Positions 3,034-21,123 of a stretch of DNA of 55,424 nucleotides are shown in pieces. This DNA comes from Pelagibius sp. (GTDB lineage: Bacteria > Pseudomonadota > Alphaproteobacteria > Kiloniellales > Kiloniellaceae). The translations under genes were made by a program, and so were the position numbers. The notes below the pieces were generated by a model. It ran no database searches, was not told where the DNA came from, and saw only the letters and a program-made list of their open reading frames with translations. Position 1 is the first letter of the stretch; every line of letters begins with the position of its first letter. The stretch spans positions 1-55,424 of the forward strand of contig NZ_JANQOI010000181.1 of assembly GCF_028289705.1 (NCBI RefSeq), in the 5' to 3' direction.

Positions 3034-3783
3034 TTATTGGGCGAGGTAGCCGCCGTCCACCACCAGGTCCGCCCCGGTCATGAAGGTGGCGTCGGGCGAC
3101 GCCAGGAACACGGCGGCGCCGGCGATCTCCCCGGCGCGGCCGATGCGGCCCATGGGATGCTTGGGCGCCAGGGCGCGCTCGGCCTCGGCCTCGGAACCAT
3201 AGGCATGGGTGAGGCGCGGCGTCAGCACCGCGCCGGGGGAGAGACTGTTGACCCGGATGCCGTCGGCGGCGTGGTCGAGGGCGAGCGCCCGGGTGAACTG
3301 CAGCAGGCCGCCCTTGGTGGTGCAGTAGGCGGCGCTGTTGGGAATGGCGACGCTGCCGAGCTGCGAGGCGACGTTGATGATCACGCCGCGGCGCGCCGCG
3401 ATCATCGACGGCAGCACCGCGCGGGTGACCAGGAAGGTGCCGGTCAGGTTGATGCGCAGGGCCTGTTCCCATTCGTTCAAGGGCAGCTCGGTGATGGGCG
3501 TGCGGCGGGCCGCGGCGGCGGCGTTGTTCACGAGGATCCCGATGGGCCCGAGGCGCGAGGATACCTGGGCGACGGCGTTGGCGACCGAGGTTTCGTCGGC
3601 GACATCCGCTTCCAGCCCGAGGGCACCGGCGCCGATCTCCGCCGCCGCCTTGCCCACGGCCTCGCCGTCGGCATCGAGCAGCGCGACCTTCGCGCCTTCC
3701 TCGGCGTAGCGCCCGGCAATGGCCTGTCCGATGCCCCGCGCCGCGCCGGTAATCACTGCCACGCTATCCGCCAGCAGACCCAT
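3034..3783 (-). CDS. SDR family NAD(P)-dependent oxidoreductase
   Basis: A classical short-chain dehydrogenase of 249 residues. The cofactor motif TGAARGIG is at residues 12-19, the NNAAA stabilising motif near 88, the catalytic Ser in VASQLGS, and YCTTK supplies the Tyr and Lys exactly 13 and 17 residues after that Ser. The C-terminus DGGYLAQ is typical of FabG-like members. It should oxidise or reduce an alcohol/carbonyl with NAD(P). It is convergent with the racemase-like gene (33 bp between the stops) and divergent from the CMD-GMC pair, so it may serve the same catabolic set, but nothing identifies the substrate. Confidence 0.9.
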   Translation of the reverse strand: MGLLADSVAVITGAARGIGQAIAGRYAEEGAKVALLDADGEAVGKAAAEIGAGALGLEADVADETSVANAVAQVSSRLGPIGILVNNAAAAARRTPITELPLNEWEQALRINLTGTFLVTRAVLPSMIAARRGVIINVASQLGSVAIPNSAAYCTTKGGLLQFTRALALDHAADGIRVNSLSPGAVLTPRLTHAYGSEAEAERALAPKHPMGRIGRAGEIAGAAVFLASPDATFMTGADLVVDGGYLAQ

Positions 3784-3931
3784 AATCTCCCTCCCTGATG
3801 TTTCTGCGGCAACTTAGAGGCTGCTCCGCCGGCTCACAACCGCATCGGCCGCGGCCGGACCTACGGTTGCTGGCAATCCCTGCGCGTTGTCAGCAAAATG
3901 CGGTCCGCAGAGATCGCCAGGAGCCCTTACG

Positions 3932-4669
3932 ATGAACAGTCCTTCCCCCAGTTCCCCGCCGCAGACCGTCGCCGAGGTCGAGACCGCCCTCGACGCGCTA
4001 CGCGCCAAGCGCGGCTACCTGCTGCCCCACCACGGGCTTCTGGCGGTATCGGCGCCGGCCCTGCTCGAGGCCTATGACGCGACCTACACGGCGATGACGC
4101 TGACCCGGCGGGTGATGAGCGACTACGAAAAGGAAATCGTCTGGCTCATCATCCTGGTGTCCACCGGCGAGGCCATCGCCACCCATCACATCGACCGCCT
4201 CTACAAGAGCGGCGGCTGCAGTGCCGACGTGGAGGCCGCGCTCGCCCTGGCGGCCTGGAGCGAAGGGGCCGAACACCATGCGTTCGTGGCCGAGCACTGG
4301 GGGCCGCACCTGAAGGACTTCGATGCCGTAGCCGCCTACCGCAACGGCCTGGAGACCCTGCTGACGCGCTTTGCCGTGGAACCCTGGATCGCCGAGATCG
4401 GGCTCGCCGCCGCGCATCAGTGCGCCCGGCGCTGGGCCTGGGTGCGCGAGCACATCAAGGGCGCCTACAAGGCCGGGGCCGACGAGGGCGCGCTCGCCGA
4501 GGGGCTGAGCCTCGCCATGTTCCCGGGCGGCGTTCCGAACTTCGTCGATGCCTGCGACGAATGGCGCAAGCTGATCGCGGCGGGGGAGGTGGAGGCCAGC
4601 GCGCCCTATCTGGCCTGGGCGCGCATGACCGGCCAGGGCGGCTTCGACGAAGCCGCGGGCCTGACCTGA
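3932..4669 (+). CDS. Carboxymuconolactone decarboxylase (AhpD-like) family protein lacking CxxC
   Basis: A 245-residue, almost wholly helical protein. The ATG at 3932 has an AGGAG site 8 bases upstream, which favours it over the in-frame start at 3887. Two CMD/AhpD-like helical repeats can be seen, around residues 50-120 (YEKEIVWLIILVSTGEAIATHH) and 140-215 (HQCARRWAWVREH). The redox CxxC of AhpD is absent: the expected place reads STGEAIATHH, so peroxidase activity is unlikely. Its stop overlaps the start of the GMC oxidoreductase (TGATG), implying translational coupling and a shared pathway. The family is probable; the function is unknown. Confidence 0.72.
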   Translation: MNSPSPSSPPQTVAEVETALDALRAKRGYLLPHHGLLAVSAPALLEAYDATYTAMTLTRRVMSDYEKEIVWLIILVSTGEAIATHHIDRLYKSGGCSADVEAALALAAWSEGAEHHAFVAEHWGPHLKDFDAVAAYRNGLETLLTRFAVEPWIAEIGLAAAHQCARRWAWVREHIKGAYKAGADEGALAEGLSLAMFPGGVPNFVDACDEWRKLIAAGEVEASAPYLAWARMTGQGGFDEAAGLT

Positions 4670-6303
4670 TGGCGGCATCGGCAAGGGCCGAGACCTTCAC
4701 CCACATTGTCGTCGGTGCCGGGAGCGCCGGCTGCATCATTGCCGCGCGCCTCTCGGAGGACCCGCACCGGCGGGTCCTGCTGATCGAGGCTGGCGGGCGC
4801 GGGCGCGGCGACCCCATGCTGCAGGTGCCCATCATGACCGGGATGCTGCTGCGGGGGAATCGCCACGTCTGGCGGTTCAAGACCGGCGCGGAGCCGGGCC
4901 TGAAGGGGCGCAGCGTCGATCTGCCGCGCGGCAAGGTGCTGGGCGGCTCCTCGGCCATCAACGGCATGGTCTACGTCCGCGGCCTGCCCCTCGACTATGA
5001 CCTCTGGGCCCAGCAGGGCATGGCCGGCTGGGGCTGGGAGGAGGTGGCGCCCTTCTTCCGGAAGTCGGAAGACTTCAACGGCCCCGGGCCCGCCGAGGGC
5101 CACGGCACCGAGGGGCCGTTCTCGGTCTCCCGCCGGGTGCGGCCGGTCAGCCCGCTTGCGGACTGTTTCGTGGCGGCGGGCCTGGCCGCGGGGCACCCCC
5201 GCGCGGAGGACTTCAACGGCCCGGAGCCGGAGGGCTTCGGCTACTACCACTTCAGCATCCGCAACGGCCGGCGGGAGACCACCGCCACCGCCTTTCTGAA
5301 GGAAGCGCAGGCACGCCCCAACCTGGTGATCCGCACCGGCTGGGAGGCGGCGCGGCTGGTGCTGGCCAAGGACCGGGTGACGGGCCTGGAGTTGCATAGG
5401 GGCAGCCGGCGCGCGACCGTCGCCTGCGACGGCGAGATGATTCTTGCCTGCGGGGCCATCGGGTCGCCCGCGCTGCTGCTGCGCTCCGGGATCGGGCCGG
5501 CCGACGAATTGCGTGGGCTCGGCATCGCGCCGGCGCTCGACAGCCCGGAGGTGGGCCGGAACCTGCAGGACCATGTGTTGATCCGGGTGAGCCATCACAC
5601 CAGCGATGCCGTCTCCCTGCATCGGCTGACCCGCGTCGACCGCGCTGCCCTCGGCTTCCTGCGCGCCTGGCTCACCGGCAGCGGGCCGATGAGCGTCTTT
5701 CCGCTGGAGGCCGGCGCCTACCTGCGCACGCCGGGCGCCGATCTCCCGACGATCCAGAGCCACTTCCTGCCGGCCGTCGGCAGCGGCACGGTGCGCTTCA
5801 ATCCCTTCGCGCCCCCGCAGAACGAGGGGCCCGGCTTCATGGCCAACGCCTCGGTCATGCGGCCCTATAGTCGCGGGCGGCTGGCGCTCACCGGCGCGGC
5901 GTTGGACGCCCCCCTCGACATCCGCGTCAACTATCTCAGCGACGAGCGGGACGTGACCCTGCTGGTGGACGCCGTGGAGATGCTGCGGGAGGTCTTCGCC
6001 CAGGCACCCTTCGACCCCTATCGCGGGGCGGAGATCATGCCGGGTGCGAAGCTGCGCTCCCGCACGGAGCTGGCGGACTGGGTCCGCGAGACGGCCAGCA
6101 CCGTCCACCATCTCTGCGGCACCTGCCGCATGGGGGCCGACGATAAATCGGTGGTCGATTCTGAGCTTCGGGTGCGCGGTCTGGAGGGGCTGCGCGTGGC
6201 CGACGCCTCGATCTTCCCCGCCATCCCCTCCACCAACACCGCCGCCCCCAGCATGATGGTGGGCGAGAAAGCGGCCGCGCTGATCGCTGGTTCGGGCTGC
6301 TGA
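4669..6303 (+). CDS. GMC family FAD-dependent oxidoreductase (choline dehydrogenase-like)
   Basis: A 544-residue protein started at the ATG overlapping the previous stop. It carries the FAD dinucleotide motif GAGSAGCIIAARLSED (about 16-31), the GMC signature GGSSAINGMVYVRG (about 90-103), and the C-terminal catalytic region with HHLCGTCRMG and FPAIPSTNTAAPSMMVGEKA. The family oxidises alcohols (choline, polyethylene glycol, aliphatic or aryl alcohols) to aldehydes using FAD and a membrane electron acceptor. Length and motifs are complete. Coupling to the CMD-like gene suggests a two-gene unit. It is not near betaine aldehyde dehydrogenase or BetI genes, so choline itself is not indicated. Confidence 0.92.
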   Translation: MAASARAETFTHIVVGAGSAGCIIAARLSEDPHRRVLLIEAGGRGRGDPMLQVPIMTGMLLRGNRHVWRFKTGAEPGLKGRSVDLPRGKVLGGSSAINGMVYVRGLPLDYDLWAQQGMAGWGWEEVAPFFRKSEDFNGPGPAEGHGTEGPFSVSRRVRPVSPLADCFVAAGLAAGHPRAEDFNGPEPEGFGYYHFSIRNGRRETTATAFLKEAQARPNLVIRTGWEAARLVLAKDRVTGLELHRGSRRATVACDGEMILACGAIGSPALLLRSGIGPADELRGLGIAPALDSPEVGRNLQDHVLIRVSHHTSDAVSLHRLTRVDRAALGFLRAWLTGSGPMSVFPLEAGAYLRTPGADLPTIQSHFLPAVGSGTVRFNPFAPPQNEGPGFMANASVMRPYSRGRLALTGAALDAPLDIRVNYLSDERDVTLLVDAVEMLREVFAQAPFDPYRGAEIMPGAKLRSRTELADWVRETASTVHHLCGTCRMGADDKSVVDSELRVRGLEGLRVADASIFPAIPSTNTAAPSMMVGEKAAALIAGSGC

Positions 6304-6566: not shown

Positions 6567-7556
6567 TTAGAGCGCCTGGATCTTGTCGTAGGCGCCGGCG
6601 CCGAAGATATCGTCGGCCAGCGCCTTGATCGCCGGCTCCAGGGTCTTCTGCGCGGCACTGGCGTCCAACAGCGGTGTGGTGTCCTCGCCGTTGAACTCCC
6701 GCCACTGCCTGAAGTTGGCGATCTCGGCCTCCTCGGTGGCCCGGAAGAAATCCTGGGGTTCCAGCTCGTTGAAGGTGCCGGTCAGGATATCCTGCTGTTC
6801 CTGGCTCAGGCCGTTCCAGGTGCCGAGGTTGATCATCTGCTTGTCGAGGCCGATGCCCCAGTCGTTCTGATAGCAGTACTTCACCACCTCGTAGAACTTC
6901 TGGCTGATCATCAGGTTGCCGAGGGTCGCCATGCCGTCGACCACGCCCTGCTGCAGCGCGCCGTAGAGCTCGTTGAAGGGGATCACCGTCGGCTTGGCGC
7001 CGACCTGCTCCAGGCCGGCGATCACGCCCTCGATCTCCGGTGCGCGGATCTTCAGACCCTTCAGGTCATCGAAGGTCTCCAGCTTCTGGTTGGTGAACAG
7101 CTTCCAGGGGCCGGCGCGGGCGACGCTGAGGTAGCGCAGCGAGGGATAGCGCTTCTGCACCGCGGCGTTCAGTTCGTCGAACAGAAGGTCGTTGGCGATC
7201 TTCTGGGCGTGGTTCGAATCGCGTGCGAAGTAGGGCGCGTAGAAGACGTCGAACTCGCGCAGGCCCGTGTAGGCGCCGTTGTAGAGCTGCACGGTGCCAA
7301 GGGCGGTGCCGTCGAGCACGTCCTTGCCGCCGCCGATGGTGCCGGCCTTGATGTCGAACTTCAACTCGCCACCGGTGCGCTCAGTGACTAGGTCGAGCCA
7401 CTTCTTGGCGAAGCGGTTGGAGGCGCTGTCGATGTTGCCGGCGTTGCCGTAGATCAGCGTCCTGGCCGCCAGCGCCGGCGCGCCGACACCGGCCAGGGCG
7501 GTCACCAGTCCGAGGCCGCCAAGCCCTTTGTTGAACGTCCGTCTGGTCAAAGTCAT
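6567..7556 (-). CDS. dctP: TRAP transporter substrate-binding protein (DctP family)
   Basis: A 329-residue periplasmic binding protein. The N-terminus MTLTRRTFNK followed by a hydrophobic stretch ending APALAA is a twin-arginine (Tat) signal, so it is probably exported folded. The body has the DctP pattern, including LKGLKIRAPEIEGVI, with the conserved Arg that grips the substrate carboxylate, and ELYGALQQGVVDGMATLGNL. The family delivers organic acids, keto acids or similar anions to a sodium-driven DctQM permease. It is the third gene after dctQ and dctM in the minus-strand operon. The divergent hydro-lyase/Hyu operon is a likely user of the imported compound. The substrate cannot be read from sequence. 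Confidence 0.92.
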   Translation of the reverse strand: MTLTRRTFNKGLGGLGLVTALAGVGAPALAARTLIYGNAGNIDSASNRFAKKWLDLVTERTGGELKFDIKAGTIGGGKDVLDGTALGTVQLYNGAYTGLREFDVFYAPYFARDSNHAQKIANDLLFDELNAAVQKRYPSLRYLSVARAGPWKLFTNQKLETFDDLKGLKIRAPEIEGVIAGLEQVGAKPTVIPFNELYGALQQGVVDGMATLGNLMISQKFYEVVKYCYQNDWGIGLDKQMINLGTWNGLSQEQQDILTGTFNELEPQDFFRATEEAEIANFRQWREFNGEDTTPLLDASAAQKTLEPAIKALADDIFGAGAYDKIQAL

Positions 7557-7592
7557 GGTTGGTCCTCCCTGGTTGGATTGATCGTGACGTCT

Positions 7593-8888
7593 CTACTGCC
7601 GGAAGACAAGGTCCGGCAGGAACAGCGTGAGCGTCGGAAAAAAGGTGATGACCAGCAGCACCCCGACGAGAATGAAGAAGTAGGGCACCGCCTCCTTGAA
7701 GATCTCGATCACCCCGACTCCGCCGATCGAGGAGATGATGAAGAGGTTGAGGCCGATGGGCGGCGTGATCATGCCGATCATCAGGTTCAGCACCATGACC
7801 ACGCCGAAGTGCACCTCGTCGACGCCCAGCCCGGTCAGCAGGGGAAAGAGCACCGGTGCCAGGATCAGCATGATCGGCAGGATTTCCATGATCATGCCGA
7901 GGATCAGCAGCATGGCGTTGATCATCAGCAGCAGCAGCCAGAGCTCGTCGGTGACCCACAGCAGCGCGTTGGTCAGGTGGACCCCCAGGTTCTCCTTCAC
8001 CGCCAGCCAGGCGAAGATCTTGGAGGTGGCCACCGTCAGCATGATCACCGAGGTGGCCACCGCGGCGTGGGAGGCGCAGTTGATGATCTGGACGATGGAG
8101 AGGTTGCGGTAGACGAAGATCCCCAGGAACAGCACGTAGAAGGCGGCGACCGCCGCCGACTCGGTCGGCGTTGCGACGCCGAAGATGATGGCGCCGACGA
8201 TGATGATGGGGGCGATGAGGGCGCTGGTGCCCTCGAAGAGCGCAATGCGGCGCTCCCGGCCGCTGGCCTTCTGCTCCAGCGGATAGGCGCGCCCCTTGCA
8301 GATCCACCAGGTCACCGCGAACATCGCGATGAACATCAGGATGCCGGGTACCACGCCGCCGAGAAAGAGCTGGCCAACGGAGATGTTGACGATCGCCCCC
8401 AGCAGGACAAAGGAGATCGACGGCGGCACGATGGGCCCGACGGTGGCCGCCGAGGCGATCACCGCGCTGGAGAAAGCGGGCTTGAAGCCGCGCTTTTTCA
8501 TCTCAGGCAGCAGCACCGTGCCGGTCGCCGCGGCGTCGGCCAGCGCCGAGCCGGAGCAGCCGGACATGATGAAGTTGGCGGTCACGCCGACGTTCGCCAG
8601 GCCGCCGTTGCGGTGGCCGACCAGGGAGGCGGCGAAGTTCACGATGCGCCGGGTCACGCCGGTCACGTTCATCAGTTCGCCGGCGAAGATGAACAGCGGG
8701 ATCGCCAGCAGCACGAAGGAGTTGACCCCCGAGGTCATCTGCTGGGCGAAGAGCACCATGGGCGTCGCGCCGTCGGTGAACTGGGAGAGGGTCAGATAGG
8801 CAAAGCCGGCAAGGCCGATGGCCCAGGCGATCTCCATCCCCAGCAGGGAGAAGACGAAGAGCACCACGATCATGGAGATCAGCAGCAT
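7593..8888 (-). CDS. dctM: TRAP transporter large permease (DctM family)
   Basis: A 431-residue integral membrane protein, taken from the ATG whose complement is 8886-8888. This start gives the normal DctM length and the N-terminus MLLISMIVVLFVFSLLGMEI; an upstream in-frame extension would read back through dctQ. It is hydrophobic throughout, with about a dozen helices and DctM hallmarks such as LLAIPLFIFAGELMN and GCSGSALADAAATGTVLLPEM. It forms the transport channel with DctQ and uses the Na+ gradient. It begins 17 bases after the dctQ stop and is followed by the binding protein. Confidence 0.93.
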   Translation of the reverse strand: MLLISMIVVLFVFSLLGMEIAWAIGLAGFAYLTLSQFTDGATPMVLFAQQMTSGVNSFVLLAIPLFIFAGELMNVTGVTRRIVNFAASLVGHRNGGLANVGVTANFIMSGCSGSALADAAATGTVLLPEMKKRGFKPAFSSAVIASAATVGPIVPPSISFVLLGAIVNISVGQLFLGGVVPGILMFIAMFAVTWWICKGRAYPLEQKASGRERRIALFEGTSALIAPIIIVGAIIFGVATPTESAAVAAFYVLFLGIFVYRNLSIVQIINCASHAAVATSVIMLTVATSKIFAWLAVKENLGVHLTNALLWVTDELWLLLLMINAMLLILGMIMEILPIMLILAPVLFPLLTGLGVDEVHFGVVMVLNLMIGMITPPIGLNLFIISSIGGVGVIEIFKEAVPYFFILVGVLLVITFFPTLTLFLPDLVFRQ

Positions 8889-8905
8889 GTCAGCGCCCCG
8901 ACATC

Positions 8906-9415
8906 TCAGCGCCCCGGCGCCACCGCGGCCTGATAGTTGGCGAAGGACTTCAGCGCGAGGCGGATCTGGTAGAAGATCATCAGCACGCTGCCGACGGAGA
9001 CCGGCGCGTAGAGCCAGACGAAGCTCCAGCCGGTGGAAAGCATCGAGCCGCCGGCCTGAAGCTGGATGATCGGCGCGTTGTACCAGACCAGGGCGACCAG
9101 CATGATCAGCACCAGGATATGCATGAAGGTCTCCAGCACCAGGCGCGGGAGGGGCGCGAACATATCGATGAAGTGGGTCACCCGGATGTTCTGGCCGCGC
9201 TTGGTCGCGACGGCGATGCCGATGAAGGTCATCCAGAGAAAGAAAGCGCGCGGGGCTTCGTCGGCCCACAGCGGCGGCTCGTTGAAGACATAGCGCGTCG
9301 TCACGGAATAGAAGACTGCGCAGGCAATGGTGATCAGCAGCGCCCCGGAGAGGTAGTAGAGGACCGTCTCAAAAAGCGAGTCCAGCTTGGCCAGGATGGT
9401 CGCTACGTTCTCCAT
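8906..9415 (-). CDS. dctQ: TRAP transporter small permease (DctQ family)
   Basis: A 169-residue membrane protein with four predicted helices (roughly 17-40, 53-70, 88-110, 130-155) and the DctQ-type segment FNEPPLWADEAPRAFFLWMTFIG split across helices two and three. It partners DctM in the TRAP permease. It is the first gene of the minus-strand dctQMP operon, and its 5' end faces the GntR regulator across a 121-bp divergent intergenic region, which suggests common control. Confidence 0.9.
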   Translation of the reverse strand: MENVATILAKLDSLFETVLYYLSGALLITIACAVFYSVTTRYVFNEPPLWADEAPRAFFLWMTFIGIAVATKRGQNIRVTHFIDMFAPLPRLVLETFMHILVLIMLVALVWYNAPIIQLQAGGSMLSTGWSFVWLYAPVSVGSVLMIFYQIRLALKSFANYQAAVAPGR

Positions 9416-9472
9416 CGTGTTCGTCTCCCCCTTCGGCCCGTTATGCGGACCTTGCGCCCCTCCACAAGCAAG

Positions 9473-9504
9473 TTGACCTAATGTTATAATGATATACTAT
9501 TAAC
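9473..9504. promoter_or_regulatory. AT-rich divergent regulatory region with imperfect palindrome
   Basis: Between dctQ (minus) and the GntR gene (plus) is a strikingly AT-rich patch in GC-rich DNA. It contains TTGACC (9473-9478), TATAAT (9485-9490) and TATACT (9493-9498). The 22-base stretch 9483-9504 is an imperfect inverted repeat (GTTA..A..ATAT..T..TAAC). I infer overlapping promoter and operator for the adjacent GntR/UTRA regulator. The -35/-10 spacings are not ideal (14 bases for TTGACC-TATACT), so exact promoter assignment is uncertain. Confidence 0.45.
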
Positions 9505-9536
9505 AGTGCAATTCGAAATTCGAAAGGTGGTCTCTG

Positions 9537-10379
9537 GTGCCGAGCAAGGCGGTCAATTCAGCGGGCGCGCAAAGCGGTCTGCTCGATCGCGGCCCGGGCA
9601 TGCCGCTCTATCAGCAGATGTTCATGATCCTCAGGAACCGTATCGAGTCGGGGGAGATTCCGGCTGGTGCCATCCTGCCGGGTGAACTGGAGCTCTCCGC
9701 GGAGTTCGACGTTTCGCGCATCACCTGCCGGCGCGCCCTGAACGATCTGGCCGACGCCGGCCTGGTCGCGCGCCAGCGCGGCGTCGGCACCCGGGTTCTC
9801 GAGCGCGGGCCGGCGGGCTCGCCCATCGTCCACGTGCCCATCGACGGCTGGCGCGAGAACGTCTCGGTGATGAGCGAGACGACCCAGGCGGTGGTTCTGG
9901 ACTTCGAGTATGTCGCGGCCTCCCCGGAAGTCTCCGAGGCCCTCGAGGTCGACAGGGACACCGTGGTGCAACGGGCGGTGCGGGTGCGCTGGCTGAGCGC
10001 GGAGCCCATGTCCTATCTGCTCACCTTCGTGCCCGAAGACATCGGCCGCCGTTACGCCCGCGAGGACCTGGGCGACATGCCGCTGATCCGGCTAATGGAG
10101 AATGCCGGCGTGACGGTGGAGTCGGTCTGGCAGTCCATCTCGGCGACCCTCGCCGATCCGGAGATCGCCTTTGCGCTGCAGGTCTCCCGGGGGAGCCCCC
10201 TGATCGAGGTGCGCCGGATCGCGCGCGACAGTCACGGGCGTCCGGTCGAGTACATCCGCATCTACTACCGCCCCGACCGCTATCGTCTGGAGATGGTGAT
10301 GGAGCGGGCCGAGGGTCAGGACGGCATGACCTGGTCGCAGCCATCGCCGAGCGGGCGCGCTGACGAGGGGCCGAAATGA
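9537..10379 (+). CDS. GntR family transcriptional regulator (HutC/UTRA subfamily)
   Basis: A 280-residue protein starting at GTG 9537, preceded by an AAAGGTGG ribosome site. The N-terminal winged helix-turn-helix (about 20-90) has the GntR pattern LYQQMFMILRNRIESGEIPAG ... SRITCRRALNDLADAGLV split over its helices. The remainder (about 105-260) is a UTRA ligand-binding domain. The family usually represses the operon it heads until a pathway metabolite binds. Its stop overlaps the next ATG (ATGA), so regulator and enzymes are one transcript. It probably controls this operon and the divergent TRAP genes from the AT-rich palindrome at 9483-9504. Confidence 0.93.
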   Translation: MPSKAVNSAGAQSGLLDRGPGMPLYQQMFMILRNRIESGEIPAGAILPGELELSAEFDVSRITCRRALNDLADAGLVARQRGVGTRVLERGPAGSPIVHVPIDGWRENVSVMSETTQAVVLDFEYVAASPEVSEALEVDRDTVVQRAVRVRWLSAEPMSYLLTFVPEDIGRRYAREDLGDMPLIRLMENAGVTVESVWQSISATLADPEIAFALQVSRGSPLIEVRRIARDSHGRPVEYIRIYYRPDRYRLEMVMERAEGQDGMTWSQPSPSGRADEGPK

Positions 10380-11674
10380 CGGTCGCCTCGCTGGCCCAGA
10401 AGATCATCGCCCGCGCCGTCGGGTGCGACCATGTCGCGGTCGGCGCGGTGGTGACCGCGAGGGTCGACCTGGCCATGATCCACGATTCCGGCGGCCCGCG
10501 CCGGGTCGCGCCGCTGCTGGCGGAACTGGGGGCGACGCTGTTCGATCCGGCGCGCGTCGTGCTGGTTTCCGACCACTTCGTGCCGGGGGACACCGAGGAG
10601 GGCGCCCGCATTCTCGCCCTGACCCGGGACTGGGCGCGGGAGACCGGGGTTACCTTTCACGACGGCCAGGGCATCTGCCATGTCGTCTTGCCGGAGCGGG
10701 GCCACCTGAGGCCCGGCATGTTCGTGGTCGGCGGCGACAGCCATTCCCCCACCGGCGGTGCCTTCGGCGCCTACATGTTCGGCATCGGCGCCACCGAGAT
10801 GGCCGGCGTGCTGGCCACCGGCGAGATCTGGATCAAGGTGCCGGAGACCATCCTGATCGAATGGAACGGCAGGCTCGGGCCCGGTGTCATGGCCAAGGAC
10901 ATCATGCTCGCCCTCTGCGGCCGCCTGGGCATGGACGGCGGCCGCTACCAGGCGATCGAGTACGCCGGCTCCGCCATTGCCGCGCTGTCGATGCAGGAAC
11001 GCATGACCCTGGCCAACATGGCGGCGGAGTTGGGCGGACAAACCGGGCTGATCGCCCCCGATGCCGTCACCGCCGACTTCGTGCGGCGCGCCGGCGGCGA
11101 CCCCGGGGACTGGGCCGGGCTTGTCACCGACCCCGACGCCGAGGGTATCGAGCACCACCGTTTCGATGCGTCCGCGCTGGCCCCGCAGGTGGCGGCCCCT
11201 CATTCCCCGGCCAACGCCATGCCGGTGGGCGAAGCCGAGCGCACGCCCATCACCGTCGCCTATCTCGGCGCCTGCACCGGCGCCAAGTACGTCGACCTGG
11301 AGGCCGCCGCGCAGGTCTTGCGCGGCCGCAAGGTCTCGTCCGGTGTGGAACTCCTGGTCGCCCCCGCCTCGCGGCGCGACCAGGACCGCGCCGCCGCCGA
11401 GGGCATCATGAGCGTCTTCGAGGAGGCCGGCGCCCGGGTGCTCCCCAACGCCTGCGGGATCTGCGCCGGCTATGGCACCCACCGGCTGGGCGCCGAGGTC
11501 ACCTGTCTCTCCTCGACGGCGCGGAACTTCCGCGGGCGCATGGGTGATCCCTCCTCCAAGGTCTGGCTCGGTTCGCCCTTCAGCGTGGCCGCCGCGGCGG
11601 TCGCCGGCCATATCGCCGACCCGCGCGACTTTCTCGCGGAGCCCGCGGTGTCGGGCCTGGGAGGATCGGTATGA
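10376..11674 (+). CDS. LeuC/aconitase-family hydro-lyase large subunit (3-isopropylmalate or 2,3-dimethylmalate dehydratase-like)
   Basis: A 432-residue aconitase-superfamily large subunit of the short LeuC2/homoaconitase type. All three [4Fe-4S] cysteines are present: C300 (GACTGAK), C360 and C363 (CGICAG). The active-site GGDSHSPTGGAFG motif is also visible. The enzyme adds or removes water on a dicarboxylic or tricarboxylic acid. A leucine-pathway role is unlikely because leuA/leuB are absent and a GntR regulator and lyase flank it. Pairing with a LeuD-like subunit and a PEP mutase-family lyase recalls the 2,3-dimethylmalate branch of nicotinate fermentation (DmdA, DmdB, Dml). That comparison is an inference, not an identification. 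Confidence 0.85.
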   Translation: MTVASLAQKIIARAVGCDHVAVGAVVTARVDLAMIHDSGGPRRVAPLLAELGATLFDPARVVLVSDHFVPGDTEEGARILALTRDWARETGVTFHDGQGICHVVLPERGHLRPGMFVVGGDSHSPTGGAFGAYMFGIGATEMAGVLATGEIWIKVPETILIEWNGRLGPGVMAKDIMLALCGRLGMDGGRYQAIEYAGSAIAALSMQERMTLANMAAELGGQTGLIAPDAVTADFVRRAGGDPGDWAGLVTDPDAEGIEHHRFDASALAPQVAAPHSPANAMPVGEAERTPITVAYLGACTGAKYVDLEAAAQVLRGRKVSSGVELLVAPASRRDQDRAAAEGIMSVFEEAGARVLPNACGICAGYGTHRLGAEVTCLSSTARNFRGRMGDPSSKVWLGSPFSVAAAAVAGHIADPRDFLAEPAVSGLGGSV

Positions 11675-12177
11675 GCGGGCGCATTTTCCTGCTGGGCGAT
11701 AATATCGACACCGACCAGCTTGCCCCGGGCCGCTACATGGGCGGCGGCATTGCCGAGATCGCAGCCCATTGCCTGGAGGCCGTCCGTCCGGACTTCGCCG
11801 CCAAAGTCCGGCCCGGCGACATTCTGGTCGCCGGCCGCAACTTCGGCGCCGGGTCGTCGCGCGAACAGGCCGCCGAAGCCCTGCGCCATCTTGGCCTCGC
11901 CGGCGTCGTCGCCTTGTCCTTCGCCGGGATCTTCTACCGCAACGCCCTGAACCTGGGGCTGCCGGCATTGGTGGCGCCTGACCTCGGCGGCATCGAGGAC
12001 GGCGACGAGGCCCTGCTGGACCCCATGGCCGGGCGTCTCACGCTGGCGGCCAAGCAGGCGGAGGTCGCTCTGGAACCGCTGCCTGAGAACCTGCGGCCGC
12101 TGCTCATCGACGGCGGTCTCATTCCCCATCTGAAAAAGCGCCTCTCCGCCGGCGCGGCGAAGGCGGGGCGCCCATGA
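11671..12177 (+). CDS. LeuD/aconitase-family hydro-lyase small subunit
   Basis: A 168-residue small (swivel-domain) subunit. It shows GDNIDTDQLAPGRYM (9-23) and the substrate-binding loop GAGSSREQAAEALR (about 55-68), both typical of LeuD and DmdB. It starts within the stop of the large subunit (ATGA) and ends within the start of the lyase gene (ATGA), so the three should be made in fixed ratio. It completes the hydro-lyase heterodimer. Substrate as uncertain as for the large subunit. Confidence 0.87.
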   Translation: MSGRIFLLGDNIDTDQLAPGRYMGGGIAEIAAHCLEAVRPDFAAKVRPGDILVAGRNFGAGSSREQAAEALRHLGLAGVVALSFAGIFYRNALNLGLPALVAPDLGGIEDGDEALLDPMAGRLTLAAKQAEVALEPLPENLRPLLIDGGLIPHLKKRLSAGAAKAGRP

Positions 12178-13046
12178 CCCTGAAGCAACTCCTCGCCGCG
12201 CCGGATATTCTATTGGCCCCCGGTGTCTATGACGGCCTGACCGCCCTGATCGCCGAGCGGCTGGGGGCCAGGGCGCTCTATCTCTCGGGCGCGTCCATCG
12301 CCTACAGCCGCTTCGGGCGCCCGGACATCGGCCTGGTCTCCATGGCCGAAGTGGCGGATACCGTGGGCGTTCTGCGCGACCGCGTGGCGCTGCCCATCAT
12401 CGTCGATGCCGACAACGGCTTCGGCAACGCCCTCAATGTTCAACGCACCATGGCGGTCTTCGAGCGCATGGGGGCGAACGCCCTGCAACTGGAAGACCAG
12501 ACCCTGCCGAAGCGCTGCGGCCACCTGGACGGCAAGGCCCTCGTCACCAGTGCCGAGATGGTCGGCAAGATCCACGCCGCCTGCGATGCGCGGCGCGCGC
12601 CGGACACCCTGGTGATCGCGCGCACCGACGCCATCTCGGTGGAGGGGTTCGAGGCGGCGCTGGAACGGGCGGAGGCCTATGTCGAGGCCGGCGCGGACGT
12701 GCTGTTCGTCGAAGCGCCCCAGTCCGTCGATCAGATGCACGCCATCGTCGCGCGCTTCGCCGGCAGGCTGCCGCTGATGGCCAACATGGTCGAAGGCGGG
12801 CAAACGCCCATGATGGATGCTGCGCGCCTGGGCGAATTAGGGTTCCGGCTGGTAATCTTCCCGGGCGGCATCGTACGGGCGCTGGCGGCCACCGCCGAGG
12901 ACTACTACGGCAACCTGCTGGCGACGGGCTCCAACGCCGGCTTCCGCGAGCGCATGCACGATTTCAGGGGCCTGAACGACCTGCTCGGCACCGCCGACCT
13001 GCTGGCCAGCGGCAAGAAGTACGAGGGAACCGGGCGTGGAGATTGA
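12174..13046 (+). CDS. Isocitrate lyase/PEP mutase family lyase (2,3-dimethylmalate or methylisocitrate lyase-like)
   Basis: A 290-residue TIM-barrel protein. Family motifs are SGASIAYSRFGRPD (about 38-51), the Mg2+-binding VDADNGFGNALNV (about 82-94), the mobile catalytic loop LPKRCGHLDGKALV (about 118-131), and FVEAPQS. Members with KRCGH cleave 2-hydroxy-tricarboxylates or substituted malates into a 2-oxo acid plus a second acid. Some relatives are oxaloacetate decarboxylases. It directly follows the hydro-lyase pair, a sensible order of hydration then C-C cleavage. Its end overlaps hyuB by 11 bases. Which 2-hydroxy acid it cleaves is not known. Confidence 0.87.
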   Translation: MTLKQLLAAPDILLAPGVYDGLTALIAERLGARALYLSGASIAYSRFGRPDIGLVSMAEVADTVGVLRDRVALPIIVDADNGFGNALNVQRTMAVFERMGANALQLEDQTLPKRCGHLDGKALVTSAEMVGKIHAACDARRAPDTLVIARTDAISVEGFEAALERAEAYVEAGADVLFVEAPQSVDQMHAIVARFAGRLPLMANMVEGGQTPMMDAARLGELGFRLVIFPGGIVRALAATAEDYYGNLLATGSNAGFRERMHDFRGLNDLLGTADLLASGKKYEGTGRGD

Positions 13047-14778
13047 TGCCGTCACGCTGGCCATCCTGAAAGGCCGCTTCGAACAGATCGCTGATGAAAT
13101 GGACGCGACCCTTTTCCGCGCCGCCTTCAACCCCATCATTGCCGAGGCCCACGACGCCAGTCACGGGCTCTACGACGCCGAGACCGGGATGACCCTGGTC
13201 CAGGGCAAGTCCGGCCTGCCGATCTTCGTCGGCGCCATGGCCTTCGCCGTGAAGTCGGTGATCGACAAGGCGGGCCCTGACGGTCATGCCCCGGGCGATC
13301 TCTGGATCTTCAATGACCCCTATGACGGGGGTACCCATCTCTCCGACTTCCGTCTGGTGAAGCCGCTGTTCCATGACGGCAGGCTGTTCTGCTTCCTGGC
13401 CTCGGTGGGCCACTGGCACGATGTCGGAGGCAACGTGCCCGGTAACTACAATCCGGCGGCCACCGAGGTGTTTCAGGAAGGCATGCTGATCCCGCCGGTG
13501 AAGCTCTACGACAAGGGCGAGCTGCGCCAGGATATCATCGACATCCTCTCCGCCAACTCCCGCCTGCCGCTGTCGCTCTATGGCGACCTGAACGGTCAGA
13601 TCAATGCGCTCGATCTGGGCGAGCGGCGCATGACCGCCCTGCTGGAGGAGTACGGCGAGGCCACCGCCGGCGCCTGCCTCAGGCAGTTGAAGGAACGGGC
13701 GGCGACCATGATGCGCGCCCAGATCGCCGCGCTGCCCGACGGCACCGTCTCCGCCGAAGACTGGCTCGACAACGACGGCATCGTCGATGAGCCGCTGAAG
13801 ATCGCCCTCGACCTGACGGTGGAGAAGGACCGCATGGTCATGGATTTCAGCCGCTCCTCGCCGGCTTGCCAGGGTCCGGTGAACATCTCCCGGGCGACGG
13901 CCGTCGCCGCCTGCTATACCGCGCTGAAGCACATCTTCGGCGAGGTGCCGGCCAATGCCGGGGTGCTTGAGCCGGTGGAGTTCCGCATCGCCGAGGACTC
14001 GCTGCTTTCCGTGAAGGCGCCGAAACCGGTGGGCGGCTACACCGAAACCATCCTGCGCATGATCGACGTGGTCTTCCAGGCGGTCGCCCAGTTGGCACCG
14101 GAGAAGACCGTGGCCTGCGCCTACGGCACCATCAACGCTCTCTCCATGGCGGGCCACCGCGCCAACGGCGCCCGCTGGGTGATGTTCTCCTTTTTCGGCG
14201 GCGGCCATGGCGGCCATCACCAGGACGATGGGCTCAACCACGGCAACGCGCCCATCTCCACCGCGACCATTCCGCCGTTGGAGATCCTGGAGGCGGCCTA
14301 TCCCGTGCGCTTCACCCAATGGGCCCTGCGCCCGGACTCCGGCGGCCCCGGGCGGCACCGCGGCGGCCTGGGCGCGGTCTATGAGATCGAGCTGCTGGAA
14401 GAGTCCGCCGACGCCTTCCTGTTCGGCGAACGCGGCAAGTTTCCGCCCCAGGGCATCGCCGGCGGTGCCCCGGCCGCCGCCAACCGCTTCACCTATCAGC
14501 AGGCCGACGGCGCCCATGAACCGCCCATGGTCTCCAAGATGGTGGGCATCCATATCGCCCGCGGCCAGCGCGTCCGGCTGGAGACGCCGGGTGGCGGCGG
14601 CTACGGCGATCCGCAGAGCCGCGATCCCCAAATCGTCGCCCGCGACGTGGCCCGGGGGTTCGTCAGCCCCGAGGCGGCCAGACGGGACTATGGCGTGAGC
14701 CTCGATCCGGCCGGGGCCGTCGACCAGGCGGCGACCGCGCGGCTGCGCCACCCAAAGGACGAGAAGGAACCGGCATGA
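13036..14778 (+). CDS. Hydantoinase B/oxoprolinase family protein (HyuB)
   Basis: A 580-residue HyuB-family subunit starting at GTG 13036 inside the previous gene. The N-terminus EIDAVTLAILKGRFEQIADE and the segment FNDPYDGGTHLSDF (about 95-108) are standard. Toward the C-terminus LRPDSGGPGRHRGGLG and TPGGGGYGDP are conserved. With HyuA it forms an ATP-using amidohydrolase (N-methylhydantoin, 5-oxoproline, caprolactam) or, in relatives, a carboxylase of ketones such as acetophenone. It is coupled to hyuA by ATGA. No small third subunit typical of acetone carboxylase is present. Confidence 0.92.
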   Translation: MEIDAVTLAILKGRFEQIADEMDATLFRAAFNPIIAEAHDASHGLYDAETGMTLVQGKSGLPIFVGAMAFAVKSVIDKAGPDGHAPGDLWIFNDPYDGGTHLSDFRLVKPLFHDGRLFCFLASVGHWHDVGGNVPGNYNPAATEVFQEGMLIPPVKLYDKGELRQDIIDILSANSRLPLSLYGDLNGQINALDLGERRMTALLEEYGEATAGACLRQLKERAATMMRAQIAALPDGTVSAEDWLDNDGIVDEPLKIALDLTVEKDRMVMDFSRSSPACQGPVNISRATAVAACYTALKHIFGEVPANAGVLEPVEFRIAEDSLLSVKAPKPVGGYTETILRMIDVVFQAVAQLAPEKTVACAYGTINALSMAGHRANGARWVMFSFFGGGHGGHHQDDGLNHGNAPISTATIPPLEILEAAYPVRFTQWALRPDSGGPGRHRGGLGAVYEIELLEESADAFLFGERGKFPPQGIAGGAPAAANRFTYQQADGAHEPPMVSKMVGIHIARGQRVRLETPGGGGYGDPQSRDPQIVARDVARGFVSPEAARRDYGVSLDPAGAVDQAATARLRHPKDEKEPA

Positions 14779-16829
14779 GCGCGTTTGTCGTTGGCGTCGA
14801 TGTCGGCGGAACCTTCACCGACGTCTTCGTGCTGGACGAGGCAGAGGGCGCGATCCGCATCGCCAAGGTCCCCTCGACGTTCGGCGACCAGTCCCGGGGC
14901 TTCATCGAGGGGATAGGCGACGCGGTGGACGACTTCGCCCAGATCCGCACGGTGGTGCACGGCACCACGGTGGGCACCAATGCCCTGCTGGAGCGCAAGG
15001 GCGCGCGCACCGGAATCATTACGACAGAGGGCTTTCGCGACGTCCTGGAGATGCGCCGCCGCGACCGGCCGGCGACCTGGGGGCTGCGCGGCAGCTTCGA
15101 ACCGGTGGTGGACCGCGGCGACCGGCTGGAGGTGGCCGAGCGCGTGCTCGCCGACGGCAGCGTGCTGGAGCCTGTGGATGCGGCGGCGGTGCAGGACCGC
15201 GCCAGGGCACTCTCGACGGCGGGCTGCGAGGCGGTCTGCGTCTTTTTCATCAACGGCTACGCCAACAGCGCCAACGAGACCCAGGCCGTCGAGGCGGTGC
15301 GCCGTGTCTGGCCCAATGCCTACGTCTCGGCGGCCACCGAGATCCTGCCGGAAATCCGGGAGTTCGAGCGCCTGTCGACGGCGACCCTGAACGCCTATCT
15401 GCAGCCCGCGGTTTCCTCCTATCTGGACCGGCTGCAGTCCGGGCTGAAGCAGCGGGATTTCGGCGGCGACGTGCTGATCGTTCAGTCCAACGGCGGCGTC
15501 ATGGCGGTTGAGAGTGCCAAGCGCTATCCCGTGCGCACGGCCTTGTCGGGCCCGGCCGCCGGGGTGATCGCGGCCAAGGCCATCGCCGGGGCCGCGGGCT
15601 TTGAGAACCTGATCACCTGCGACATGGGCGGGACCTCCTTCGATGTTTCCCTGGTGGCCGGGGGCAAGGCGGCGATTGCCGCGCAGACCTCTATCGATTT
15701 CGGCATGGTGGTGCGCACGCCGATGATCGAGATCACCACCATCGGCGCCGGCGGTGGCTCCATCGCCTATCTCGATCAGAGCGGGCTGCTCCAGGTCGGT
15801 CCGGAAAGCGCCGGGTCCAATCCGGGGCCGGTCTGCTACGGGCTCGGCAACACCCGGCCGACGGTGACCGACGCCAACCTGCTGTTGGGCCGGATCAACC
15901 CCGAGCGCCCCATCGGCGGCAAGCTGGAAAAGCTCGACGTGGCGGCCGCCCGGGCCGCGATGGAGGCCGTCATTGCAGGACCCCTCGATCTCTCGGTCGA
16001 GGAGGCCGCCGAGGCGGTGATCCGCCTTGCCAATGCGAAGATGGCCGGCGCCATCCGCCTGGTCTCCATCGAGCGCGGCCACGACCCCGCGAAGTTCACC
16101 GCCATGCCCTTCGGCGGCGGCGGCGCCCTGCACACCGGCGCCCTGATCAAGGAAGTCGGGCTCGGCGCGGCCCTGGTGCCCCGCTTCCCCGGCGTCACCT
16201 CGGCCCTCGGCTGCGTCGTCGCCGACATGCGCCACGACCGGGTGCAGACGGTCAACCGCCTGTTGGCGCAGACCGATTTCGCGGCGCTTCAGAGCGAGAT
16301 GACCGCGGTGGCCGAAGCGACGGAAGCGGTGGTGCGCGGCTCCGGCATCGCCTTCGAGCGCATCGAGCGCAGCTACGAGTTCGATATGCTCTACCTCGGC
16401 CAGACCCACAGCATTGCGGTGCCGCTGGAGATTCCGCCGGAAGGGCTCGATCAGGCAGCCGTCACAGCGGCTTTCGAGGCCGCCTACCGCGCGGCCTATG
16501 GGCGGCTGTTGGAGAATATCCCGATCCGCCTGATGAACTACCGGGTGACGGTGACCGGCCGCCGGCCGGCCTTCGACATGGGCGTCTTCGCGCCGGCCGG
16601 CGGGCGCCCGGCGGCGGACTGCGCCATCGGCAGCCGCGAGGTCTATGCCGAGGGGCGCTTCTGGACCGCAACGGTCTACGAGCGCCTGGAACTGGAGGCC
16701 GGCGCCCTGGTGCCGGGCCCGGCGCTGCTGGAGCAGGCCGATGCCACCATCTTCATCGATCCCGGCCTCTCCGGGCGGGTCGACGGCTTCGGTAACCTGA
16801 TCATCTCGGACCGGGAGGGCCAGCAGTGA
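14775..16829 (+). CDS. Hydantoinase A/oxoprolinase family protein (HyuA)
   Basis: A 684-residue HyuA subunit. The phosphate-binding VVGVDVGGTFTDVFV lies at residues 4-18, and HGTTVGTNALLERKGAR (about 58-74), LSGPAAGVIAAK, CDMGGTSFDVS and MPFGGGGALHTG are further hallmarks. It supplies ATP binding and phosphorylation of the substrate or bicarbonate for the HyuAB reaction. It follows hyuB by a 4-base ATGA overlap and is itself followed by a GTGA overlap. Full length, no damage seen. The reaction, amide hydrolysis or carboxylation, cannot be decided from sequence. Confidence 0.93.
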   Translation: MSAFVVGVDVGGTFTDVFVLDEAEGAIRIAKVPSTFGDQSRGFIEGIGDAVDDFAQIRTVVHGTTVGTNALLERKGARTGIITTEGFRDVLEMRRRDRPATWGLRGSFEPVVDRGDRLEVAERVLADGSVLEPVDAAAVQDRARALSTAGCEAVCVFFINGYANSANETQAVEAVRRVWPNAYVSAATEILPEIREFERLSTATLNAYLQPAVSSYLDRLQSGLKQRDFGGDVLIVQSNGGVMAVESAKRYPVRTALSGPAAGVIAAKAIAGAAGFENLITCDMGGTSFDVSLVAGGKAAIAAQTSIDFGMVVRTPMIEITTIGAGGGSIAYLDQSGLLQVGPESAGSNPGPVCYGLGNTRPTVTDANLLLGRINPERPIGGKLEKLDVAAARAAMEAVIAGPLDLSVEEAAEAVIRLANAKMAGAIRLVSIERGHDPAKFTAMPFGGGGALHTGALIKEVGLGAALVPRFPGVTSALGCVVADMRHDRVQTVNRLLAQTDFAALQSEMTAVAEATEAVVRGSGIAFERIERSYEFDMLYLGQTHSIAVPLEIPPEGLDQAAVTAAFEAAYRAAYGRLLENIPIRLMNYRVTVTGRRPAFDMGVFAPAGGRPAADCAIGSREVYAEGRFWTATVYERLELEAGALVPGPALLEQADATIFIDPGLSGRVDGFGNLIISDREGQQ

Positions 16830-17455
16830 CGGCCGATCTCGCCGATCCCGCACGCTCGGCGGTGCTGATCGTCGATCTGCAGAACGATTTCCTGCACCCC
16901 GAGGGGGCCTATGCCAGGGGCGGCCAGGCCAATGCCGATATCGCCGCCCTGCCGGCGCAGGTCCTGCCGCTGGTCGAGGCCATGCGCGCCGCCGGCGGCT
17001 GGGTCGTCTCCACCCAGTTCACCCTGGTGCCGGGCAAGGGCGGGGAGCCTTTCATCTCGCCCCACCTGAAGGCCCTGCGCCCCTTTCTCGGCAAGGGGGA
17101 CTTCGCGCCGGGCGGCTGGGGCCACAGCCTGGTCGAGCCTCTGCAGCCGGCCGACCTCGTGGTCGAGAAGGTGGCCTACTCGGCCTTCTTCATGACGCGG
17201 ATGGACTGGGTGCTGCGCAAGGCCGGCATAGAGCGGCTGTTCGTCTGCGGCATCGTCACCAACGGCGGCGTGGCCTCCACGGTCCGCGACGCCCATGTGC
17301 GGGACTTCCACACCACCGTCCTTTCCGACGGCTGCGCCGCCTTCTCGCGCGAAACCCACGAGCATGCCCTCAGCGACCTCTCCAGCCTCTGCCGGGTGGC
17401 GACCTGCGCCGAAGCACTGCAAGAGATTGCGGGGGATCCTACCGGGAAGCACTAG
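16826..17455 (+). CDS. Isochorismatase-fold hydrolase lacking the catalytic cysteine
   Basis: A 209-residue protein starting at GTG 16826 overlapping the hyuA stop. It has the family's Asp (D17 in VDLQNDF) and Lys (K115 in EKVAYSAFF). The segment that carries the nucleophilic Cys in amidases, T-x-x-C-V, reads TNGGV (145-149), so the Cys is a Gly. True isochorismatases (EntB, PhzD) also have Gly at that place and hydrolyse vinyl ethers, whereas nicotinamidases and carbamoylsarcosinases need the Cys. I therefore doubt an amidase role. It is the last gene of the overlapped operon; 65 bases separate it from the cupin gene. Confidence 0.85.
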   Translation: MTADLADPARSAVLIVDLQNDFLHPEGAYARGGQANADIAALPAQVLPLVEAMRAAGGWVVSTQFTLVPGKGGEPFISPHLKALRPFLGKGDFAPGGWGHSLVEPLQPADLVVEKVAYSAFFMTRMDWVLRKAGIERLFVCGIVTNGGVASTVRDAHVRDFHTTVLSDGCAAFSRETHEHALSDLSSLCRVATCAEALQEIAGDPTGKH

Positions 17456-17520
17456 CGGCTTCGGTCCAAGTTGGGGCACCATGGCCCCGACGCTGATCGA
17501 ACGGAAAGGCTTGGTTCCCC

Positions 17521-19724: not shown

Positions 19725-19745
19725 ACACCACAGGGGAGAACGGCG

Positions 19746-20825: not shown

Positions 20826-20989
20826 ACCGGCGTCCGCGGCGGCGCCTCGGGTGAGCCGCCGAACGATTGTGGGAGCGCACTGAAACGTCTGGAATCCGGT
20901 TCCGGAAGCCGCCCTTCGACGGCCGGGACCAGACTCTTCTTGTCGACGAATGGCTGACAGCCGTCTGCCCGGTACCGATGCGCTGGAAA

Positions 20990-21079
20990 TGGCGGAGGGA
21001 GAGGGATTCGAACCCTCGGTACGCTTGCGCGCACAACGGTTTTCGAGACCGCCCCGTTCAACCACTCCGGCATCCCTCC
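20990..21079 (-). tRNA. serU: tRNA-Ser (anticodon CGA)
   Basis: The minus strand reads a full class II tRNA of 90 nt with encoded CCA. The acceptor stem GGAGGGA pairs with TCCCTCC. The D-arm, the anticodon loop CTCGAAA flanked by a paired stem, a long variable arm typical of serine, and the T-loop TTCGAAT are all in place. The anticodon CGA reads UCG. A promoter matching TTGCAA-17-TAGTAA lies just upstream. It is the left member of a duplicated block; see 27744-27833. Confidence 0.96.
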
Positions 21080-21094
21080 GCGGACGGCGCGCCC

Positions 21095-21123
21095 TTACTA
21101 GCCTTGTGCTGTGGCGCTTGCAA
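21095..21123 (-). promoter_or_regulatory. Promoter of tRNA-Ser
   Basis: On the minus strand TTGCAA (complement of 21118-21123) is followed after 17 bases by TAGTAA (complement of 21095-21100). The tRNA 5' end lies 15 bases beyond the -10 box, giving a short leader. Spacing and position fit a sigma-70 tRNA promoter. The same TTGCAA is kept in the right-hand copy near 27870, where the -10 reads TAGCAG. Confidence 0.6.

Follow-up and report, generated by a model that had tools for sequence, protein, structure and literature searches.

A conserved seven-gene cluster in Pelagibius sp. and its possible role in the catabolism of a maleate-type cyclic imide

The operon and its interchangeable ring-opening modules

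The window analyzed here is a stretch of 55,424 nucleotides from Pelagibius sp. (assembly GCF_028289705.1, contig NZ_JANQOI010000181.1, positions 1 to 55,424 of the forward strand), and its element of interest is an operon of seven genes on the + strand that would probably, though far from certainly, encode a catabolic pathway for a cyclic imide or amide of the maleate type. The first gene encodes a GntR/UTRA (HutC-type) regulator (9537..10379; Pfam GntR and UTRA) and is followed by the LeuC-like large subunit (10376..11674; aconitase family by Pfam and NCBIfam) and the LeuD-like small subunit (11671..12177; Pfam and NCBIfam, with a loop RYMGG and a GSSRE motif) of a hydro-lyase. Next are a C-C lyase resembling PrpB and 2,3-dimethylmalate lyase (12174..13046; Pfam PEP_mutase, KRCGH motif), the hydantoinase/oxoprolinase B subunit HyuB (13036..14778; Pfam Hydantoinase_B, 567 bits), the ATP-type A subunit HyuA (14775..16829; Pfam Hydantoinase_A, nearest PDB entry N-methylhydantoinase), and an isochorismatase-fold protein, ICH (16826..17455; Pfam Isochorismatase), in which Asp17 and Lys115 are present and Gly148 takes the place of Cys. 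The consecutive open reading frames (ORFs) overlap by 4, 4, 4, 11, 4, and 4 bases. An initial annotation, made from the letters alone, had described seven genes overlapping by 4–11 bases, named their families, called the last enzyme Cys-less, and placed a divergent tripartite ATP-independent periplasmic (TRAP) importer beside them. All ORFs were recovered in place and on the expected strand, Pfam and NCBIfam agree with all seven families, Gly occupies the Cys position in 44 of 44 aligned sequences, and the importer genes DctP, DctM, and DctQ are found at 6567–9415.

Among 289 genomes sampled across the class, 25 have a relative of LeuC at an E value of 1e-80 or better, as do 16 of 58 relatives; the window's own genome is included in both counts. 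In a scan of named genomes, the best 80 further loci belong mostly to Alpha- and Betaproteobacteria, with some from Gammaproteobacteria, Flavobacteriaceae, Bacillus relatives, and archaea. The 119 loci with LeuC that we examined contain three duplicate pairs (L079/L056, L081/L058, and L089/L027), leaving 116 non-duplicate loci; locus counts below include these pairs unless labelled non-duplicate. LeuC, LeuD, the lyase, HyuB, HyuA, and ICH occur together in 39 of the 116, a set gathered by LeuC in which several others end at contig ends. Given this recurrence, the linkage of the seven genes is more than chance, and the search for conserved clusters that accompanied the initial annotation as a proposed check gives a positive answer. 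The cluster is a real, conserved pathway without match in the open-licence literature: among titles and abstract openings, no paper was found on this gene combination and none on genes for the breakdown of hematinic acid or dialkylmaleimides, so the initial statement that it matches no nameable pathway stands for that literature.

The ring-opening part of the cluster is exchanged among relatives. A LeuC sharing at least 50% identity with that of the window is found at 100 non-duplicate loci, of which 48 have HyuB, HyuA, or ICH, 13 an alternative set (AMI or PUE), and none both (hypergeometric value of 9e-5, with shared ancestry uncorrected and with the broken HyuB of L098, at a coverage below 30%, omitted). 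AMI is an isochorismatase-fold, amidase-type protein, and all 14 of its aligned sequences, including three from Flavobacteriaceae, have the Cys. PUE and PUE2 are PuuE/cyclic-imide-hydrolase-like proteins; all 13 loci carry both of the latter and 11 carry AMI. For the PuuE-like proteins tested, which were also compared with solved structures, the best model is PuuE allantoinase, under its cut-off. An allantoinase/dihydropyrimidinase-like protein is found in 4 of the 100 loci, and here the allantoinase, dihydroorotase, and hydantoinase models are all under their cut-offs. Three unrelated cyclic-amide hydrolase families interchange near the same hydratase and mostly the same lyase, which suggests that a cyclic amide or imide step belongs to the pathway. 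The available text of PMC9304392 places cyclic imide hydrolases, namely P. putida CIH and HxnM, in the PuuE superfamily, and has HxnM opening 3-hydroxypiperidine-2,6-dione before the amidase HxnN acts.

One locus, L098, carries parts of both modules. The frame after its lyase starts like HyuB (86% over the first 14%), meets an in-frame stop, and breaks off, and AMI-PUE-PUE2 follow in the opposite orientation. We read this as an apparent trace of one module replacing the other, with misassembly of a metagenome-assembled genome as an alternative. Three Flavobacteriaceae loci (L147, L151, and L152) carry AMI-PUE-PUE2-LeuCD with CaiB and 3-hydroxy-3-methylglutaryl-CoA-lyase-like genes, and no match to the lyase was found in them. 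At L173, L175, L177, L178, and L179, AMI-PUE-PUE2 lie near more distant lyase and/or LeuCD subtypes (37–43%), as if this imide-opening module served several substrates. Beside the AMI/PUE variant cluster of L134 there is a run of similar genes, glyoxalase-fold by eye (16425–21260). AtuA/DUF1446-like genes occur in 7 of the 100 loci. A Burkholderiales version (L106, L109, L111, L114, L117, L124, and L125) has such genes near LeuC and, where the contig permits, near LeuD, a flavoprotein, and the lyase; several of these loci also show DUF4387-like, short-chain dehydrogenase (SDR), PrpD, and distant PuuE-like genes.

Both Hyu proteins of the window score far over the Pfam cut-offs for Hydantoinase_A and Hydantoinase_B, as hydantoinase/oxoprolinase subunits do, and the NCBIfam models for the caprolactamase CapAB reach 336 and 504.6 bits against a cut-off of 1000. 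HyuA also matches subunits of acetophenone and acetone carboxylases, and HyuAB could on this ground be a carboxylase of that type, the remaining enzymes handling a branched dicarboxylate that arises from the carboxylation. These matches are weaker than those to N-methylhydantoinase and 5-oxoprolinase, however, and hydrolases substitute for HyuAB in the same context; we regard such a carboxylase as very improbable.

In an ICH alignment of the window and 43 loci, with some duplicates among the latter, 44 of 44 sequences keep the catalytic-triad Asp and Lys and none keeps the Cys, and an NGG motif is present in 41 of 41 non-duplicate relatives. The Asp-Lys-Cys triad of the isochorismatase-fold cysteine amidases RutB, NicF, and CSHase is therefore incomplete in ICH, and Gly at the Cys position would fit an isochorismatase proper of the PhzD/EntB type, which has no Cys nucleophile. 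The nearest sequence is that of structure 3kl2, which has no assigned function, and then RutB. The predicted fold, with a mean predicted local distance difference test score (pLDDT) of 82.7 and values below 50 at residues 119–123 after the active-site Lys, matches an isochorismatase-like protein without assigned function, triuret and biuret hydrolases, RutB, isochorismatases, and maleamate amidases (3uao and 4l08). Dialkylmaleamates break down via the anhydride, and our working idea is that the adjacent cis-carboxylate of a dialkylmaleamate substrate would act as the nucleophile in ICH.

Several of these matches would also suit a cyclic ureide of the hydantoin or pyrimidine type, from which HyuAB would form an N-carbamoyl compound that ICH decarbamoylates as in creatinine breakdown, leaving the carbon skeleton to LeuCD and the lyase. 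N-methylhydantoinase is the nearest match of HyuA, RutB follows 3kl2 as the closest sequence to ICH, the ICH model is close to triuret and biuret hydrolases and RutB, and the L107 amidohydrolase has a model for hydantoin-5-propionate amidohydrolase among its matches. The product of such a route would be an amino acid or enamine, however, and not the maleate that LeuCD requires. Moreover, there is no deaminase or ammonia-lyase among the seven genes, and ICH lacks the Cys of RutB- and biuret-type hydrolases. We consider a ureide substrate unlikely and continue with the cyclic imide.

The hydratase, the lyase, and a candidate substrate

In LeuC, aligned to the large subunit of isopropylmalate isomerase, the residues Cys300, Cys360, and Cys363, which are the 4Fe-4S ligands of the aconitase superfamily, are kept in 15 of 15 sequences. 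The protein scores above the cut-offs of the NCBIfam models 'aconitase/3-isopropylmalate dehydratase large subunit' and 'homoaconitate hydratase family', the latter of which covers more than one substrate, and LeuD scores above that of the 'LeuD/DmdB' model. The aligned LeuD of the window has both GSSREQ and the specificity loop RYMGG, as in the heterodimeric LeuCD and homoaconitase enzymes. The loop Arg of homoaconitase proper is absent from it, and the NCBIfam homoaconitase equivalogs fall under their cut-offs. In the accessible part of PMC7308503, roles are assigned to the GSSRE region and to the small-subunit loop, which sets substrate preference. Lys or Arg, mostly Lys, occupies this loop in 88 of 95 non-duplicate relatives, and a few have Ser or Ala; the same position is Arg (YLRT) in the solved homoaconitase small subunit and Val in isopropylmalate/citramalate isomerase.

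The lyase belongs to the phosphoenolpyruvate mutase/isocitrate lyase superfamily by its KRCGH loop at residue 113, the loop that carries the catalytic Cys. Its best NCBIfam model is prpB, which it matches with 281.2 bits against an equivalog cut-off of 354.4. For a C-terminal segment the closest PDB entry is 2,3-dimethylmalate lyase, which leads narrowly (32.0 vs 30.6 bits), and over the full length other entries outscore it.

The initial annotation had compared hydro-lyase plus lyase to the dimethylmalate segment of nicotinate degradation. The type of reaction bears this parallel out, but the glutaryl-CoA genes in relatives described below point to glutarate and not to propionate; to our knowledge, the ring-opening/amidase pair has no place in the dimethylmalate/nicotinate pathway. 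A nicotinate-type degradation with a branch through dimethylmalate, in which HyuAB would act on some other lactam, would draw on the LeuD/DmdB family assignment, on the likeness of the lyase segment to 2,3-dimethylmalate lyase, and on proteins resembling, by eye, the small iron-sulfur subunit of molybdenum hydroxylases near L086, L090, L098, and L140. As the module exchange, in a comparison that covered gene neighborhoods, suggests that the cyclic amide step is part of the pathway, this branch appears highly unlikely.

For the imide, we propose that the TRAP importer would take up a substituted maleimide-type compound, which HyuAB would open at the expense of ATP to a half-amide. ICH would release ammonia from the half-amide to give a 2,3-disubstituted maleate, LeuCD would hydrate this to a 2-hydroxy-2-methylsuccinate derivative, and the lyase would cleave the latter to pyruvate and a second acid. 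The reactions, the direction in which they run, what the Cys-less ICH does, and which substrate is used are all our inference; the general order of uptake, HyuAB ring opening, hydration, and cleavage into a 2-oxo acid plus another acid, as first put forward in the initial annotation, is supported by the comparison of loci.

The nature of the second acid is suggested by three loci of one genus (L156, L159, and L164), in which GntR-HyuB-HyuA-ICH-GcdH-CaiB-LeuC-LeuD lie on one strand and HyuB, HyuA, and ICH are 62–69% identical to those of the window. The best solved match to the L156-type GcdH has 622 bits, and the top seven consist of six glutaryl-CoA dehydrogenases and one acyl-CoA dehydrogenase (4w9u); the dehydrogenase beside HyuBA-ICH is very probably a glutaryl-CoA dehydrogenase (GcdH). 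For CaiB the best NCBIfam match is succinate--glutarate CoA-transferase (537 bits, cut-off 750), and its matches among solved structures include a CaiB/BaiF protein (4ed9) and a formyl-CoA transferase, both ahead of succinate--hydroxymethylglutarate CoA-transferase. A second GcdH lies elsewhere in the genomes of all three loci. Among the 289 sampled genomes, seven are listed with two GcdH, and four of these (G014, G033, G162, and G260) have one beside the cluster.

A GcdH of at least 68% is found in 9 of 130 loci from about six lineages (L043/L044 being one genus, as are L156/L159/L164), where about 0.5 would be expected if there is one GcdH per 4.5 Mb and loci are independent; GcdH was noticed after up to 45 neighbor clusters had been viewed, and the query was that of L156 itself. 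With the ICH-chosen set left out, the count is 6 of the 119 loci chosen by LeuC. The joining of GcdH and glutarate-CoA-transferase-like genes to HyuBA-ICH suggests glutarate, and these sequences provide moderate evidence that, in the closest type of pathway, cleavage would yield glutarate as the second product.

For a PrpB-like lyase to yield pyruvate and glutarate, it needs HOOC-C(OH)(CH3)-CH(COOH)-CH2CH2-COOH, the homologue of 2-methylisocitrate with one more carbon. The matching maleate is 2-methyl-3-(2-carboxyethyl)maleate and its imide is hematinic acid, which makes hematinic acid a candidate substrate. The route would lead from hematinic acid through 2-methyl-3-(2-carboxyethyl)maleate and 2-methylhomoisocitrate to pyruvate and glutarate. 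From the linkage in some relatives and the chemical fit, hematinic acid is our best guess for a single candidate, although we assign it and the full route to the operon only tentatively.

Several observations weigh against this assignment. In the L156-type loci, no match to the lyase was found, LeuCD are of a different subfamily (37–38%), and the HyuA of L164 is in two overlapping pieces, the smaller at 51%. No NCBIfam model is above its cut-off for GcdH or CaiB. When 11 new loci were selected by PUE, none (0 of 11) had a GcdH of at least 68%, and the lyases and LeuC of these loci, where present, are of a more distant type. No GcdH was seen beside the window cluster, and the GcdH matches in the window's genome are one of 65% over 95 amino acids at a contig end and others of 30–34%. 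ICH lacks the Cys nucleophile that is usual in amidases of its fold, the need for ATP in imide hydrolysis is not obvious, and 28 of the 100 loci, some on short contigs, show none of the ring-opening modules. Finally, the LeuD loop of the window reads YMGG, with Gly where 88 of 95 relatives have Lys or Arg. This makes the case for hematinic acid weaker for the window itself, whose LeuCD may act on an uncharged side chain.

The same logic could thus apply to an imide with plain alkyl groups (ethylmethyl-, methylvinyl-, or dimethylmaleimide), which would give pyruvate and butyrate or propionate. The YMGG loop and the few relatives with Ser or Ala there, as well as the narrow preference of the lyase segment for 2,3-dimethylmalate lyase, are consistent with such a substrate. 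Yet the TRAP binding protein retains an Arg whose partner in this family is a carboxylate, and some relatives link HyuBA-ICH to glutaryl-CoA genes. The available text of PMC7318184 draws methyl ethyl and methyl vinyl maleimides among the products of tetrapyrrole breakdown, but this leaf study, as far as that text goes, detected hematinic acid and no maleimides. We give an alkyl imide a modest chance.

Hematinic acid, the candidate we prefer, is a natural fragment of chlorophyll and heme according to the accessible portions of PMC7318184, PMC12860425, and PMC8131568. In leaves its levels are like those of propentdyopents, and senescent leaves and lake sediments are cited as sources of both hematinic acid and maleimides (PMC7318184, in the portion available). 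The corresponding portions of other articles report hematinic acid from 45-million-year-old leaves (PMC12860425) and from heme and peroxide by E. coli ChuS (PMC8131568, PMC11442138). An even more tentative extension is that the relatives together represent a widespread bacterial route for the last monopyrrole of chlorophyll and heme, with opening by HyuAB, PuuE-like, or allantoinase-like enzymes and degradation to pyruvate and glutarate. In such a route, the Cys-less amidase ICH would use the substrate's own neighboring carboxylate for amide release, and the TcuA-like flavoprotein of many relatives would feed in dihydrohematinic acid from chlorophyll's reduced ring.

The breakdown of chlorophyll and heme proceeds on a vast scale, with hematinic acid in leaves and maleimides in sediments (PMC7318184 and PMC12860425, available parts). 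If the proposal is true, a defined gene set would open the final part of tetrapyrrole carbon and nitrogen cycling to testing and provide a genome marker for it, and two candidate enzymes would be gained, a Cys-less amidase and a 2-methylhomoisocitrate lyase. Even with another imide as the substrate, three unrelated ring openers around one hydratase-lyase core offer a clear handle on the pathway.

Surrounding genes and the extent of the unit

Upstream of the operon lies a divergent control region (9416..9536, no strand) with an AT-rich stretch, tataatgatatactatta, in which no strong palindrome was found; an operator for the regulator between DctQ and GntR was rejected, the single weak palindrome being located inside dctQ. 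The importer genes follow on the - strand: the small permease DctQ (8906..9415; 67–68% to DctQ of L080 and L087), the large permease DctM (7593..8894, start uncertain; 80–87% to DctM of the same loci), and the solute-binding protein DctP (6567..7556; NCBIfam TRAP_S1), whose conserved Arg lies in GLKIRAPE, corresponding to GLKLRVP in a SiaP. Accessory genes farther out encode a GMC-family flavin adenine dinucleotide (FAD) oxidoreductase (4636..6303, +, start uncertain; Pfam GMC_oxred_N/C), a carboxymuconolactone-decarboxylase (CMD)/AhpD-like protein (3887..4669, +; Pfam CMD, homology from ~3962), an SDR labelled by eye (3034..3783, -), and an arylmalonate decarboxylase/maleate isomerase-like (Amdase-like) protein (2237..2998, +, start uncertain within ORF 1877–2998; Pfam Amdase, 30.9 bits).

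Within 10 kb of the cluster, L080 has homologues of DctP (88%), GMC (61%), CMD (67%), SDR (57%, at 17900–18649), and the Amdase-like protein (47%, directly after ICH), and L087 has DctP (84%), GMC (59%), and CMD (74%), with SDR at 32% to a similar protein there. The CMD homologues adjoin GMC in both loci. Because TRAP, GMC, and CMD recur near the cluster in L080 and L087, and SDR and the Amdase-like protein in L080, the unit is probably wider than seven genes in this lineage and would include all five. The one further locus found to have matches to this TRAP and GMC is L070 (42% and 50%).

The binding protein of a five-gene branched-chain-amino-acid-type ATP-binding cassette importer takes the place of TRAP in 19 of 48 non-duplicate HyuBA loci and 27 of 100 overall. 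A flavocytochrome c/TcuA-like FAD protein occurs in 32 of the 48; no match to it was found in the window's genome in a search without a positive control, and it was rejected as a required part and counted as accessory. A SnoaL-like small protein lies near the cluster in 20 loci (for example L076, 9424–9807, by Pfam), and in L131 two LeuC, two HyuA, and several matches to the flavoprotein and the lyase point to a cluster that may be broken or in part duplicated.

Downstream, at 17521–19724, are a 195-amino-acid protein without a Pfam match, cupin/thiol-dioxygenase-like by eye, and a protein with three rhodanese matches, their ORFs overlapping by 4 bases. They seem to form a sulfur-related pair of their own. 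The idea, taken from these genes, that the substrate is mercaptosuccinate or another sulfur compound was rejected, both proteins being unmatched in the 119 loci at the thresholds used, and the pair is for this reason excluded from the unit. A Porphyromonas-type peptidyl-arginine deiminase family protein (Pfam) lies at 19746–20825, and the G+C content is 0.53 at 26001–28000 against 0.62–0.72 in the rest of the window.

Relation to known pathways

HyuAB is also paired with an isochorismatase-fold hydrolase, N-carbamoylsarcosine amidase, in the creatinine/N-methylhydantoin pathway. Unlike that enzyme, ICH is Cys-less, and LeuCD and the lyase have no counterpart there. The maleamate amidase NicF/Ami of the nicotinate and nicotine pathways shares the isochorismatase fold, acts on a maleic half-amide, and is among the fold matches of ICH; Ami is a Cys enzyme, however (the title of 4l08 names a C149A mutant), where ICH has Gly.

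The end of the methylcitrate cycle consists of AcnB/AcnD and PrpB, and the dimethylmalate segment of nicotinate fermentation of DmdAB and a lyase. The window has enzymes of the same families, which would likewise hydrate a substituted maleate and cleave the product to pyruvate and an acid. The difference is that the acid is here probably one carbon longer (glutarate) or alkyl, and that an imide- or amide-opening module is attached.

Finally, a microbial cyclic-imide pathway with an imidase and a half-amidase is reportedly known from the work of Ogawa, Soong, and Shimizu. This pathway and the fungal HxnM/HxnN (PMC9304392, in its available text) resemble our proposal in that an imide ring is opened and the half-amide is then hydrolyzed. 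The likeness to the cyclic-imide pathway extends to the variant loci, which use proteins of the PuuE/CIH superfamily. In the window, by contrast, HyuAB would be the opener and a Cys-less enzyme would act second, and the pathway would continue with its own hydratase and C-C lyase.

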